Origin: a virus
Strand: one strand, 5' to 3'
IMG/VR virus record: IMGVR_UViG_3300042197_000359
Location: 1-26,560 of that record
Length of the DNA: 26,560 bases
The notes beneath the pieces are model-generated. The model was given only the letters and a program-made list of their open reading frames with translations. It was not told where the DNA came from and did no database searches. A program made the translations under genes and the position numbers. Below are positions 2,837-21,061 of this stretch, piece by piece. The stretch's first letter is position 1, and each line of letters starts with the position of its first letter.

Positions 2837-2865
2837 TTGACATATGGTTTTATATGGGATATAAT
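2837..2865 (+). promoter_or_regulatory. perfect consensus promoter in the origin region
   Basis: TTGACA (2837-2842), exactly 17 bases, TATAAT (2860-2865). The predicted start is near 2872. No plausible coding sequence follows for over 200 bases. Confidence 0.6.
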
Positions 2866-2871
2866 CCAGAA

Positions 2872-2996
2872 AAAAGGTTTGATACTAGATATAGTGGTTT
2901 GGGGATTACGAACCCCCTAGTAATAGATGCTCCATTCCCCACTATCCTCCACTTCCCTCCACCAATAATATTATATTTATACACAGTAATATTTTT
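2872..2996 (+). ncRNA. candidate structured non-coding RNA with CCTCC motifs
   Basis: Downstream of the 2837-2865 promoter. An outer stem ATAGTGG (2891-2897)/CCACTAT (2939-2945) encloses a GGGG/CCCC hairpin (2901-2904/2913-2916). A pyrimidine-rich tail (2946-2963) carries two CCTCCAC motifs. An AT stem AATATTA (2967-2973)/TAATATT (2987-2993) followed by Ts could end it. The transcript and its 3' end are inferred. Confidence 0.3.
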
Positions 2997-2997
2997 C

Positions 2998-3018
2998 TGT
3001 GGATAAACCTGTGGATAA
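2998..3018 (-). promoter_or_regulatory. pair of perfect DnaA boxes
   Basis: TGTGGATAA occurs at 2998-3006 and 3010-3018, which is TTATCCACA on the minus strand, the strict bacterial DnaA box. Start-to-start spacing is 12 bp, about one helical turn. A one-mismatch box, TTTTCCACA, lies near 2752 on the plus strand. Confidence 0.6.
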
Positions 3019-3110
3019 CTGGGGGTATTTATAAAAATAACATTACGAAGGGTCTAAAAATTTTCCAGTTTCATGGACTTTTTTTATCCATGCTATAATA
3101 TTATTTGAGT

Positions 3111-3266: not shown

Positions 3267-4031
3267 ATGATTATCAGTTATTCTAAAAACTTTGTATATA
3301 TTCATTTAGAAAAAACAGGCGGTACATCCGTAGAGTTTGCATTAGAACCTTTCCTATCCTCTGATGATAAAAAAATAGATATGGTCGTAGGAAGTACTCC
3401 AAATGGAGAAGCACTAGAAGATACTCTTAAAATGAAATATGGAGAAAAAAATTTAATATATAAGCATTCATCATCACAAGAAGCAAAAGAATTTTTAGGT
3501 GATCAATGGGACAATATGTATAAATTTGCTACTGTAAGAGATCCCCACGATTTAATGATATCTCTATATTACTACTCTGAGACTATTCTTGCTAGATTTA
3601 TAAATAGTATAGATAAAGAAACAATAGTAGATTTTTTTATGAATAAACCAAGACACCCTGTTGTAAAAATATGGGCAAAAGAAATGCCATATATGATAGA
3701 TTATTTTAGGTCTTGGCATTATGAAAATGGTATAGATGGTTTTATTCAATCTATCCTGTTAGGAAATGGACATCATAAGATGAAAACCCAATATGAAAGA
3801 CTAGAAAAATCTGTTGAAATTTTTGATCTTTCTAACCTATCAAATGATTGGGCAACTATTCAACAAAAAACTGGTATTTTTGAAGCAGAATTAAAACATG
3901 AAAATAAAAGCAAAAAGCCAGAAAATGTTACATTATCTGATAAAACAATAAAATGTATATTAGATTTTTTCAAAGAAGATTATGAGATTATTCCACAAAC
4001 AACTGGCATCTCCTGGAAACACTCTGTCTGA
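3267..4031 (+). CDS. P-loop sulfotransferase (PAPS-dependent)
   Basis: 254 residues; predicted to transfer sulfate from PAPS to a carbohydrate or other hydroxyl acceptor. The 5'-phosphosulfate loop is at residues 13-21 (HLEKTGGTS). The 3'-phosphate motif is at 91-99 (RDPHDLMIS, R-x7-S) followed by LYYY. This is the standard pair for carbohydrate-type sulfotransferases (family knowledge). Length is normal and no transmembrane anchor is seen, unlike Golgi enzymes, so it should act in the cytoplasm. GGGGAG lies just before the ATG. Together with the APS kinase domain at 9053 it suggests a phage sulfation route. The acceptor cannot be told from the sequence. Confidence 0.8.
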   Translation: MIISYSKNFVYIHLEKTGGTSVEFALEPFLSSDDKKIDMVVGSTPNGEALEDTLKMKYGEKNLIYKHSSSQEAKEFLGDQWDNMYKFATVRDPHDLMISLYYYSETILARFINSIDKETIVDFFMNKPRHPVVKIWAKEMPYMIDYFRSWHYENGIDGFIQSILLGNGHHKMKTQYERLEKSVEIFDLSNLSNDWATIQQKTGIFEAELKHENKSKKPENVTLSDKTIKCILDFFKEDYEIIPQTTGISWKHSV

Positions 4032-4685: not shown

Positions 4686-4714
4686 TTGACACTGTTATTA
4701 GATTAGGCTATAAT
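4686..4714 (+). promoter_or_regulatory. perfect consensus promoter for a candidate ncRNA
   Basis: TTGACA (4686-4691), 17-base spacer, TATAAT (4709-4714). The predicted start is about 4721. The next 110 bases are structured and have no ORF. Confidence 0.6.
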
Positions 4715-4720
4715 TATATC

Positions 4721-4830
4721 TAGAAGGGCTTAGAAACCCTTCTCATCGCACCCTTTCTGGCGATGAAGTCGTCCCTACCTTTCTGGGGATGCGCTCCTGG
4801 GTATGAGCACTAAACTGCCCCCTTTCTATT
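4721..4830 (+). ncRNA. candidate small RNA with CCTTTCT loops
   Basis: The predicted RNA begins with stem AGAAGGG (4722-4728)/CCCTTCT (4737-4743). Stem TCATCGC (4743-4749)/GCGATGA (4760-4766), which shares base 4743 with the first, has loop ACCCTTTCTG. Stem CGTCCC (4770-4775)/GGGATG (4786-4791, one G-U pair) has loop TACCTTTCTG. GCTC/GAGC (4793-4796/4805-4808) and an unpaired CCCCCTTTCT (4818-4827) follow. CCTTTCT is the exact complement of the AGAAAGG SDs seen at 467 and 1011. No homologue is recognised; the 3' end is unknown. Confidence 0.4.
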
Positions 4831-4831
4831 A

Positions 4832-4860
4832 TTGACAAACTTGATGCGATATGAGATACT
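4832..4860 (+). promoter_or_regulatory. promoter for the leaderless 4867 gene
   Basis: TTGACA (4832-4837), 17 bases, GATACT (4855-4860). The ATG at 4867 is six bases after the -10, at the expected transcription start. Confidence 0.6.
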
Positions 4861-4866
4861 TGCAGT

Positions 4867-5001
4867 ATGGAACTAACTAACGAATACATCAAATCAGAAC
4901 TTGTCAAAATTAACGAATTATTATTATCAGGCTCTTTTCATGATATAGATGAGGCTAGTCATATATCAGCAAGGTTAATAGGGGAATTAAGTTCTTCTTG
5001 A
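4867..5001 (+). CDS. 44-residue leaderless microprotein
   Basis: ATG 4867 to TGA 4999-5001: an acidic, helical peptide (MELTNEYIKSELVKINELL then ...SFHDIDEASHISARLIGELSSS). The well-formed promoter placed exactly for a leaderless start is the main support. Its last codons hold the -35 of the next promoter. It resembles the short LxxE-type helical proteins elsewhere in the window, but no family is recognised. Confidence 0.5.
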   Translation: MELTNEYIKSELVKINELLLSGSFHDIDEASHISARLIGELSSS

Positions 5002-5030: not shown

Positions 5031-5795
5031 ATGCCTGAATTAAATGCCAATATACCGCCGATTGAATGCTATGTCCGTGGTAATTTTTTGCGTGATCAAA
5101 AAGATAGCCACGATCAATACTTTCCATGTGTGATCTTTGGCGTATCCAGTGTGCCAAACCGTAGCCCATTATTTCATTTTATGATGGAAGATGGTGGTAT
5201 CTGGTGGAGAATGCCTATCAACGCTTTCTGTACCAAGCCTGGTGTTAAGGAAGAAGATATACATAATTTAGTATTATGGAATTCGTTTAGTCCTTTTGTT
5301 ACCGTCACAAAATTCTCAAACCTTGCAAACCTTCGCATGTTTTATATGGACAGAACTAAGACTAAGATATCTGGTAAATATTTATTTACTTTAGATTGGT
5401 ATAGCGGAGATGCAAACAGTCTTGATGATGGCTACTCTGAAAATCCTGGTCAGCATAAGTGTGGTCATGTTATTGAGCGTGATGATGGCAACTTTGCTAT
5501 TCAACCTAACAACCGCATCTTTGCATTAGAGCCTTCCTTTACTACTAAGCCTGGTAAACCTGTTATACATCGTCTTATTAATACCCGCAAATGGGATGTA
5601 GAGGATGCTGCCAAGTGGGTTACAGAAGACTCAGATGCTTATCATTATGACATTACGAACATGGAAAATGAAAGCGGACCTGTAGTTGATAAAATGCGCC
5701 CAGCAGTTAAAGAGGCTCTTGATCAGTTCTTGGCTGATCCAGATACTGATGTCATTATGGAAAGATTAAAGTATATGGAGGACAATGGTATTTAA
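5031..5795 (+). CDS. conserved hypothetical protein, 254 residues
   Basis: I do not recognise a family with a known function. The protein is soluble, with no membrane segment, and rich in aromatic residues. The N-terminal half contains IPPIECYVRGNFLRDQ and a GGIWWRMPINAF strand; the middle has CGHVIERDDGNFAIQPNNRI; the C-terminal third is acidic and helical (VDKMRPAVKEALDQF, VIMERLKYMEDNG). The start is backed by the -10 five bases upstream (leaderless). GGAGG within its last codons serves as SD for the next small gene. An early or middle regulatory or DNA-metabolism role is possible, but nothing in the sequence decides it. Confidence 0.75.
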   Translation: MPELNANIPPIECYVRGNFLRDQKDSHDQYFPCVIFGVSSVPNRSPLFHFMMEDGGIWWRMPINAFCTKPGVKEEDIHNLVLWNSFSPFVTVTKFSNLANLRMFYMDRTKTKISGKYLFTLDWYSGDANSLDDGYSENPGQHKCGHVIERDDGNFAIQPNNRIFALEPSFTTKPGKPVIHRLINTRKWDVEDAAKWVTEDSDAYHYDITNMENESGPVVDKMRPAVKEALDQFLADPDTDVIMERLKYMEDNGI

Positions 5796-5906: not shown

Positions 5907-6080
5907 ATGAGAGAGTCTTTTGAATTCCCCGAAACCTTAAGCGAAGTAGTCTTAGTTGTACAAACATTATCTCCGACAAAATGGTTACTTGTAGACAGAG
6001 AAACTGGACAAATATATCAGGGTAATGCTGCAGGTCATTGGGATAAACTTGAAACTAAACAAAGAATTGACAAGAAATAG
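5907..6080 (+). CDS. 57-residue conserved hypothetical
   Basis: ATG 5907 with AAGGAG (5896-5901) five bases upstream, ending at TAG 6080. The core WLLVDRETGQIYQGNAAGHW looks like a small beta-sheet unit, similar to short actinophage proteins with a VDR-TGQ-Y-GN pattern (recollection). Function unknown. Its last codons carry the -35 of the promoter at 6067. Confidence 0.6.
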   Translation: MRESFEFPETLSEVVLVVQTLSPTKWLLVDRETGQIYQGNAAGHWDKLETKQRIDKK

Positions 6081-6095
6081 TTTTTAGGATATAAT
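6067..6095 (+). promoter_or_regulatory. perfect consensus promoter
   Basis: TTGACA (6067-6072), 17 bases, TATAAT (6090-6095). The ATG at 6101 follows five bases later, so the 6101 mRNA should be leaderless. Confidence 0.65.
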
Positions 6096-6100
6096 AAATT

Positions 6101-6244
6101 ATGGCTGAAATATCTTTTGAGGTATTTAAGGGTGGGCATGATTTAATATTGTGTACTACTTGTTTTTGTGTTATACCGCCTCATAAGCAGTCAGATCATG
6201 TCAGGTGGCATGATAAGTTAATATTAGAAAGGCGAGATGGATAA
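6101..6244 (+). CDS. 47-residue zinc-finger-like protein, leaderless
   Basis: The peptide has LCTTCFCVIPPHKQSDHVRWHDKL: a CxxC pair followed by two His spaced like a small C2H2 finger. This arrangement is common in short actinophage proteins with a HxxWHD ending (recollection). A perfect promoter ends five bases before the ATG. It overlaps the next gene by eight bases. Likely a small nucleic-acid or protein-binding factor; function unproven. Confidence 0.6.
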   Translation: MAEISFEVFKGGHDLILCTTCFCVIPPHKQSDHVRWHDKLILERRDG

Positions 6245-8001: not shown

Positions 8002-8075
8002 GGAACAGTAGCCAAGTTGGTTAAGGCTCCGAACTCATAATTCGGTGATCGTAGGTTCGAGTCCTACCTGTTCCA
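8002..8075 (+). tRNA. tRNA-Met/Ile2 (CAU)
   Basis: Full cloverleaf: acceptor GGAACAG/CTGTTCC (8002-8008/8068-8074), discriminator A 8075, anticodon stem CCGAA/TTCGG with loop CTCATAA, T-arm GTAGG-TTCGAGT-CCTAC. The anticodon CAU may be elongator Met or lysidine-modified Ile. CCA is not encoded; the base after the discriminator is C, then the ATG of the next gene. Confidence 0.93.
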
Positions 8076-8076
8076 C

Positions 8077-15810: not shown

Positions 15811-16040
15811 TATTTTAATGGCTTTCGTGTTACTAGCACGATAGCACCCTCCATTTCTAACGCCTTTTTTACAAGAGTAACGTATTTGACCGCTTCCATT
15901 TTCTCGTCATGCGTTAATGTCAAGAAAGATCTTTCATCTAATTTTATCGTAAGAAAGTGTTCGTTGTCAATAAGAGAAATAGTAAAATTTTTAGGAGCAG
16001 ATATAGAATGAAAAGCCTTACGCATGTTATCTGTATACAT
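15810..16040 (-). CDS. conserved hypothetical, 76 residues
   Basis: Start taken at ATG 16040, where it overlaps the WhiB stop (TAATG); a longer frame to 16079 would lie inside the WhiB gene. The protein is alpha/beta (FTISLIDNEHFLTIKLDERSFL, then EKMEAVKYVTLVKKALEMEGAIV). No catalytic motif or membrane segment. Co-transcribed with WhiB and the dimer glycosylase-like gene. Function unknown. Confidence 0.65.
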   Translation of the reverse strand: MYTDNMRKAFHSISAPKNFTISLIDNEHFLTIKLDERSFLTLTHDEKMEAVKYVTLVKKALEMEGAIVLVTRKPLK

Positions 16041-16324
16041 TATTTTTCCATAGTTAGTGCTTGCCAGGTGTAGGACCAATCTTTTTTGGTTTTATGATTA
16101 TTAAACTCTTTTGATACTTCCCCACCTTCTAGGTAGATACCGCCCCAGACACCCCACTCTTTTCCAGATATGCCTACTGCAAAACAAGTTTTTGCAACTG
16201 GACAAGTTCTACATAAAGAGTCTACAAACTGTCTGCTTTCTTCTTGTTCTTCGTAAGTATCAAAAAATAGATTGGTTTCAGATCCCAAACATAGGGCATT
16301 GTCTTTCCACAAATGCTGTTGCAC
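16040..16324 (-). CDS. WhiB-family Fe-S transcription regulator
   Basis: 94 residues with the four cluster-binding Cys C12, C38, C41, C47 (C-x25-C-x2-C-x5-C) and the GVWGG turn at 58-62, the hallmark of WhiB proteins found in actinobacteria and their phages. It would bind a [4Fe-4S] cluster and sigma factor region 4 to alter transcription, perhaps redirecting host promoters or blocking superinfection. The basic tail (NNHKTKKDW) is the DNA-contact region. GTG start with AAGGGA in the previous gene's last codons; coupled to neighbours. Confidence 0.92.
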   Translation of the reverse strand: MQQHLWKDNALCLGSETNLFFDTYEEQEESRQFVDSLCRTCPVAKTCFAVGISGKEWGVWGGIYLEGGEVSKEFNNHKTKKDWSYTWQALTMEK

Positions 16325-20679: not shown

Positions 20680-20683
20680 CCAG

Positions 20684-20755
20684 AGCCTCCTGTAGGATTT
20701 GAACCTACGACAACCCGCTTACAAGGCGGGTACTCTACCCCTGAGTTAAGGAGGC
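20684..20755 (-). tRNA. tRNA-Thr (UGU)
   Basis: Minus strand: acceptor GCCTCCT/AGGAGGC, discriminator U, anticodon stem CCCGC/GCGGG with loop CTTGTAA, T-arm GTAGG-TTCAAAT-CCTAC. No CCA is encoded. Confidence 0.93.
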
Positions 20756-20759
20756 TGAG

Positions 20760-20830
20760 AGCGGATAGCGAGAATCGAACTCGCACATTAACCTTGGCAA
20801 GGTTACGCACTACCACTATGCAATATCCGC
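20760..20830 (-). tRNA. tRNA-Gly (GCC)
   Basis: Minus strand: acceptor GCGGATA/TATCCGC, anticodon stem TAACC/GGTTA with loop TTGCCAA, T-arm GCGAG-TTCGATT-CTCGC. Four bases from the neighbouring tRNA. No encoded CCA. Confidence 0.93.
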
Positions 20831-20834
20831 TAAG

Positions 20835-20906
20835 TATCTCCAACGGGAATCGAACCCGTGTTTACGCCGTGAAAGGGCATTGTCCTAACCGCTAGACGAT
20901 GGAGAC
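20835..20906 (-). tRNA. tRNA-Glu (UUC)
   Basis: Minus strand: acceptor GTCTCCA/TGGAGAT with a G1-U72 wobble, D-arm GTCT/GGAC, anticodon loop CTTTCAC, T-arm ACGGG-TTCGATT-CCCGT. No encoded CCA. Confidence 0.92.
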
Positions 20907-20910
20907 AGAG

Positions 20911-20984
20911 CGATCCGTATCGGACTTGAACCGACGACCTCTACCGTGACAGGGTAGCGTTCTAACCAACTGAACTAACGGACC
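20911..20984 (-). tRNA. tRNA-Asp (GUC)
   Basis: Minus strand: acceptor GGTCCGT/ACGGATC, anticodon stem CTACC/GGTAG with loop CTGTCAC, T-arm GTCGG-TTCAAGT-CCGAT. Discriminator G. No encoded CCA. Confidence 0.93.
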
Positions 20985-20985
20985 T

Positions 20986-21061
20986 TGGCTGGTCTGGTAG
21001 GACTCGAACCTACGACCCAGGCATTAACAGTGCCTTGTTCTGCCAACTGAACTACAGACCA
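20986..21061 (-). tRNA. tRNA-Asn (GUU) with encoded CCA
   Basis: Minus strand: acceptor TGGTCTG/CAGACCA, anticodon stem AGGCA/TGCCT with loop CTGTTAA, T-arm GTAGG-TTCGAGT-CCTAC, discriminator G then CCA (20988-20986). It is the first tRNA of the five and the only one with a genomic CCA. Confidence 0.93.

Follow-up and report, generated by a model that had tools for sequence, protein, structure and literature searches.

The question raised by this locus is whether a short promoter-led interval that repeats the heptamer CCTTTCT encodes a regulatory RNA, and on which messages such an RNA would act. The interval lies in the IMG/VR virus record IMGVR_UViG_3300042197_000359, of which positions 1 to 26,560 were analysed (the window, 26,560 bases in all).

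A putative promoter-led small RNA gene

The original prediction was of a perfect TTGACA-N17-TATAAT promoter driving about 110 bases with no open reading frame (ORF), in which two stems present CCTTTCT in their loops and a third copy is unpaired. The promoter does match the consensus at 12 of 12 positions, with a 17-nt spacer, and the homologues inspected have -35 and -10 elements in the corresponding position (TTGACA or TTGCAT, TATAAT or TATACT). No credible ORF exists in 4721-4830, so that by sequence the locus has its own promoter and lacks an ORF, as expected of a trans-acting base-pairing small RNA (sRNA). The putative 5' end was placed from the -10 box and the putative 3' end from a pseudoknot and the next promoter, which belongs to a transcription unit that delimits the sRNA in the 3' direction (coordinates of its 44-amino-acid ORF were taken from the sequence). 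The features of the locus are:

4686-4714, + strand: sRNA promoter, TTGACA (4686-4691), 17-nt spacer, TATAAT (4709-4714)
4721-4832, + strand: small RNA of about 110 nt, recognized from fold, alignment, covariation and lack of an ORF
4723-4742, + strand: 5' clamp hairpin, GAAGGG...CCCTTC, of variable length and sequence among homologues
4744-4765, + strand: hairpin A, stem CATCGC/GCGATG, loop ACCCUUUCUG, CCUUUCU at 4752-4758
4770-4791, + strand: hairpin B, stem CGUCCC/GGGAUG, loop UACCUUUCUG, CCUUUCU at 4778-4784
4793-4820, + strand: H-type pseudoknot, P1 GCUC (4793-4796)/GAGC (4805-4808), P2 GGGU (4799-4802)/GCCC (4817-4820)
4821-4827, + strand: third CCUUUCU, immediately 3' of the pseudoknot, of uncertain accessibility
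4832-5001, + strand: next transcription unit, promoter TTGACA-N17-GATACT (4832-4860) and leaderless 44-amino-acid ORF (ATG 4867)

The minimum free energy of the sRNA is -34.5 kcal/mol versus -27.2 kcal/mol for shuffled sequences (z -2.2), which taken alone is modest support for a fold. The two hairpins display their copies of CCTTTCT as had been predicted (unpaired with probability 0.98 and 0.88), and both loops are open (0.88-1.0). The third copy is present at 4821, but its unpaired state is uncertain (probability 0.47 in the window, 0.05-0.94 in relatives) because it can pair with the 5' AGAAGG; an exact copy persists in 7 of the 14 sequences of the alignment. The clamp hairpin and the pseudoknot are parts of the RNA that the original prediction had lacked, and the clamp varies with compensation among homologues (AGAAGGG/CCCTTCT, AGAAGGC/GCCTTCT, CAGTCAA/TTGACTG, AGAGAC/GTCTCT, AAGAGC/GCTCTT). 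The heptamer has an ordinary frequency in the whole window (7 occurrences versus 4.2 expected); what is notable is the presence of three copies within 76 nt and their conservation in relatives.

Perfect TTGACA-N17-TATAAT promoters are also found elsewhere in the window. One (2837-2865) belongs to a conserved non-coding region at approximately 2840-3025 with the repeats GGTTTG, TTCCTCCAC and TGTGGATAA (reverse complement of the DnaA box TTATCCACA), which is a candidate replication origin or a candidate RNA with CCUCC repeats, and which has counterparts in L116, L122, L125, L126, L147, L162, L323 and L329. Another, the third in the window, lies at 6067-6103 together with an ATG (6101) 5 nt past the -10 box, a probable leaderless start. 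The window also contains six tRNA genes: a tandem array for Thr, Gly, Glu, Asp and Asn (20683-21061, - strand) and a tRNA-Met gene (8002-8076, + strand).

Homologues and covariation

Relatives were gathered by means of the protein encoded at 5031-5795, a scan for triple CCTTTCT and later pattern scans, and homologues were accepted only where the hairpin or pseudoknot context agreed. The triple heptamer was rejected as a marker in itself: its scan of viral contigs returned mostly collagen-like coding repeats, and therefore the pattern alone is not evidence of homology. About 24 other viral contigs contain a homologue of the sRNA, each in a single full copy. A covariance-model search returned exactly one full copy in each of the 21 contigs searched, two of which (G005 and G019) have a single-hairpin form of the RNA; further members are L436 (two hairpins) and L438 and L440 (single hairpin). 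No relative of the RNA was found in 50,697 phage records, and no cultured phage record matches it. Two of the fetched relatives that lack the full RNA, G023 and G028, possess in the corresponding interval, downstream of the origin-like region, another putative promoter-led RNA of about 110 nt with the same pseudoknot end but without CCUUUCU (L132, approximately 540-740, and L147, approximately 3310-3480).

The 14 two-hairpin members could be aligned with little ambiguity. The six pairs of hairpin A and the six of hairpin B are 100% paired in all 14 sequences, with two-sided changes at four and five pairs, respectively (9 of 12 together), and at 11 of the 21 pairs of the whole structure, pseudoknot included. 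The covariation score is 0.388 versus 0.130 for shuffled alignments, a value reached by none of 500 shuffles, and slid partners score at most 0.08. In this alignment (A1), compensatory base changes thus exceed the control, as in a structured RNA family, and a chance match of the hairpins is ruled out by covariation.

The loops are conserved more strongly than the stems. In nearly all members they are the 10-nt sequence UCCCUUUCUG, flanking G included; the exceptions are those of the window (ACCCUUUCUG in hairpin A and UACCUUUCUG in hairpin B), hairpin A of L122 (CCCCUUUCUG) and hairpin B of L436, which has one extra C. The core CCUUUCU is common to all homologues. Because the stems covary strongly around loops that are nearly invariant, the original prediction, which proposed that related phages should have compensatory stem changes with CCUUUCU preserved in the loops, stands on this point. 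The RNA itself, in its structure and its loop conservation, is therefore well supported by comparison; how it would act is inferred from the sequence.

Two classes of Shine-Dalgarno sequence

Actinobacteria share with Firmicutes the 16S rRNA tail sequence GAUCACCUCCUUUCU, according to their 16S sequences. The tail has been measured in Firmicutes (PMC6288834). The equation of CCTTTCT with this tail in the original prediction was correct for the extreme 3' part, CCUUUCU, but the match does not include the CCUCC core, and loops without that core would therefore be selective rather than general anti-Shine-Dalgarno (anti-SD) sequences. Both of the AGAAAGG sites to which the loops had been described as complementary are present:

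467-473, + strand: AGAAAGG SD of the ORF at 480-698, at the tail end of a cluster of genes with AGAAAGG SDs
1011-1017, + strand: AGAAAGG SD of the ORF starting at ATG 1024

The window begins at the end of this cluster, and these two are its only such SDs with an ORF of at least 70 amino acids. In relatives that extend further upstream, small co-directional genes form a same-strand cluster that lies within about 15 kb upstream of the RNA. The SDs of this cluster are mostly AGAAAGG, which is perfectly complementary to the loop, and often CAGAAAGG. When all SDs with at least 6 matched bases were counted, with the same-strand 20 kb upstream of the RNA taken as the cluster, AGAAAGG was present in 104 of 160 SDs there versus 3 of 140 elsewhere (Fisher p 9e-35, from related contigs in which SD counts are not independent events). 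The enrichment is individually significant (p < 0.05) in 11 of 14 contigs, and the bias has the same direction in every contig with SDs in both groups. Genes outside the cluster use AAAGGAG, AAGGAG or AGGAGG. A blind ranking of 7-mers before start codons, with duplicates removed, placed AGAAAGG first (50 of 124 cluster genes versus 2 of 440 others). Comparison thus supports a partition of SD types, and two SD dialects can be distinguished by genome region in G001, G003, G008, G010, G012 and G016-G019 (L369-L394), and likewise in G022, G027 and G028.

Predicted duplex energies agree with this partition. For the loop, duplexes with cluster-type SDs lie at -9.3 to -13.7 kcal/mol and those with late-type SDs at -4.3 to -5.6 kcal/mol, whereas the 16S tail makes little distinction between the two types (-8.0 to -10.3 and -8.3 to -12.3 kcal/mol, respectively). 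A loop site of -8 kcal/mol or better precedes 91 of the 124 cluster genes and 59 of the 440 others. Shuffled C/U-rich loops also separate the two groups in part (AUC mean 0.59, maximum 0.81, versus 0.84 for the real loop) because SDs are purine-rich, and the sequence-level AGAAAGG test is the stronger of the two.

AGAAAGG SDs are found in the same cluster in three relatives without the full RNA (G022, G027 and G028), and the SD class is therefore independent of the RNA. It may be older than the RNA, which would exploit it; alternatively, the RNA may serve host takeover. Streptomyces phage Jay2Jay, a distant cultured relative, has neither an AGAAAGG SD cluster nor the pseudoknot in the stretch inspected.

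Host and gene classes

The actinobacterial setting assumed at the outset is supported by the gene content. The window encodes a WhiB-like protein (16040-16324, - strand; PF02467 at 16136-16309, E 1.2e-13, over the cut-off), as do 8 of the 11 relatives searched (9 of 12 records including the window), and among 14 control genomes PF02467 matches only Corynebacterium glutamicum. Streptomyces phage Annadreamy has a portal protein 47% identical to that of G003, and the DUF932 proteins of Streptomyces phages are 53% identical to that of G010. From the WhiB genes and this likeness to Streptomyces phages, the host is very likely an actinobacterium; to call it a freshwater one is suggested by low G+C content and general knowledge of such phages. 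Many of the phage genes may be leaderless, with a -10 box directly at the start codon.

The AGAAAGG-SD cluster encodes GP88 (PF17338), DUF932 and DUF1281_C proteins. In Jay2Jay the DUF932 gene is near the genome end, at two places in the record, as in a terminal repeat, and for this reason the cluster genes are called early, a putative assignment. The genes labelled late, equally putatively, lie on the other strand and include those of portal, head protease, DNA polymerase and RecA.

A recurrent pseudoknot

The 3' pseudoknot has a core of C-UGRGY-AU...AAAC(U)-GCYC with a variable P1, and 162 distinct instances were identified among the sequences fetched. P1 covaries (0.435 versus 0.141 for the control). 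No more than 40 nt separates 82 of the 162 instances from the stop codon of an upstream ORF of at least 60 codons, compared with 70 of 810 random positions, and the pseudoknot is also found directly 5' of tRNAs. It occurs without the hairpins in many unrelated phages, including cultured phages of several hosts: Lentibacter phage ICBM1 (L331, 2501-2530) and Roseobacter phage SIO1 (L332) are examples. L276, L299, L304 and L329 have several copies each, and it is also found in L335, L337 and L338. A strict version of the pattern has only 3 matches in 84,980 bacterial and archaeal genomes, and the pseudoknot is not in Rfam 15. An intrinsic terminator was considered, but T content after the pseudoknot is only slightly raised (4.3 versus 3.5 per 12 nt), with a T run in some copies. 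The pseudoknot is possibly a general 3'-end or intercistronic element of phage mRNA. It looks like an undescribed and widely shared phage mRNA element, testable in the cultured phages SIO1 and ICBM1.

Proposed action of the RNA

The RNA probably blocks translation of the cluster of genes with AGAAAGG SDs, from which the late and leaderless genes would escape. Its own strong sigma70-type promoter would yield a free-standing phage RNA of about 110 nt, with the clamp hairpin at its 5' end, then a pair of hairpins that both display UCCCUUUCUG as their loop, and the pseudoknot at its 3' end. In the cell, the loops would pair (7-8 bp) with the AGAAAGG SDs of the same-strand cluster just upstream, in competition with the 16S tail (CCUCCUUUCU-3'), and translation of the cluster would fall once these SDs were occupied. 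Leaderless genes and those with AAAGGAG or AGGAGG SDs would pair poorly with the loops and continue to be translated, and host mRNAs with AGAAAGG SDs would also be affected. A fuller and more tentative version of this scheme is that these phages have two translation dialects, an early one of AGAAAGG and a late one that is AAAGGAG, AGGAGG or leaderless, and that the RNA, which copies just the final seven bases of the 16S tail, silences the early block as an early-to-late switch. Its 3' end would be sealed by the pseudoknot, which these phages and many unrelated ones would employ as a general 3' element of their mRNAs.

It is unlikely, though the best of the alternatives, that the RNA acts mainly on host translation through host SDs of the AGAAAGG type, the match to the phage cluster being a side effect of the use of the host's SD dialect by both. 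The loop sequence is contained in the 16S tail, so host SDs of this type would match it; the AGAAAGG cluster persists in phages that lack the full RNA; and the phage genes with a -10 box at the start codon may be leaderless. Takeover by this route fits poorly with the lack of the CCUCC core, which would let typical GGAGG SDs escape, and with the position of the RNA, which follows the cluster on that strand.

Somewhat less likely still is a site for a phage or host protein, such as a decoy that titrates an RNA-binding protein, comparable to CsrB and RsmZ, whose repeated loops titrate CsrA. RNAs that sequester proteins typically have such a design, the same loop being presented two or three times on stems that covary, and loops of 10 nt that are nearly invariant to the flanking G would suit a protein. 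We know of no protein that has CCUUUCU as its binding site, however, and a protein site would not predict that the 7-mer most enriched in the cluster is perfectly complementary to the loop.

A cis-acting leader or processing element that controls the small gene next to it, or else the 3' end of the upstream transcript, is improbable: the RNA does end beside a downstream promoter and ORF, and the same pseudoknot follows many genes, but the RNA has its own promoter, the gene downstream of it differs among phages (and in the window has the promoter at 4832-4860 and a leaderless start), and the loops are more conserved than the stems. Least probable by far is a type III toxin-antitoxin RNA: the repeated structured units with a pseudoknot recall ToxI, but the repeats are hairpins and not pseudoknots, no neighbouring gene is conserved, and no ToxN family match was found in 12 records (weak evidence, as the control genomes likewise have no match).

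Comparison with known RNAs

Scans of the window (E up to 10) and of the homologous regions against Rfam 15 returned chance matches only, and no description of the sRNA or the pseudoknot was found in the literature. Translational repression by C-rich loops that bind ribosome-binding sites has been reported for the B11/6C RNA of mycobacteria (PMC10470900). The phage RNA resembles 6C (B11, RF01066) in its two hairpins, its pyrimidine-rich loops complementary to ribosome-binding sites (the pairing here is predicted) and its actinobacterial setting. It differs in being phage-encoded, in its pseudoknot end, in having one phage gene cluster as its putative target, and in its loops, which contain three consecutive C (UCCCUUUCUG; four in L122) instead of the runs of about six cytosines in 6C. 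The 6C covariance model has no match in the window (E up to 10) or in L302; with complementary loops of a different sequence and no model match, the phage RNA is therefore a work-alike of 6C and not a member of its family.

The c4 RNA of phages P1 and P7 blocks the phage's own mRNA around the ribosome-binding site, with the complementary sequences likely in loops (PMC12197685). Here too a phage RNA is proposed to act on the phage's own ribosome-binding sites through loops, but c4 acts on a single mRNA (ant) for immunity, whereas these loops match a whole SD class; the c4 family of Rfam has no match in the window or the homologous regions. The RegA protein of T4 competes with the ribosome at the initiation regions of many early and middle mRNAs and so represses them (PMC3014915). 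The role proposed for the phage RNA is alike, but RegA is a protein, whereas the regulator proposed here is an RNA that would act via SD complementarity.

The loops differ from those of two other RNAs in seed and origin. RsaE and RNAIII of S. aureus, C-rich-loop sRNAs of Firmicutes, pair with SDs through unpaired C/U-rich loops. Their seeds are of the UCCC type, directed toward the G-rich core, and they are of chromosomal origin; we know of no homology between them and the phage RNA. Compact H-type pseudoknots of the luteovirus frameshift and preQ1-I types have a short loop 1 and an A-rich loop 3. The 3' domain of the phage RNA shares this general topology with an unrelated sequence, and differs in being located after stop codons and before tRNAs and in its absence from Rfam 15.

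Implications for phage gene regulation

If repression of the AGAAAGG cluster by this RNA is correct, one RNA would control a whole temporal class of genes via a Shine-Dalgarno variant specific to that class. The variable 3' tail of 16S rRNA would have a use that can be tested directly, and there would be a reason why, in these actinophages, the type of Shine-Dalgarno sequence tracks the position of the gene.
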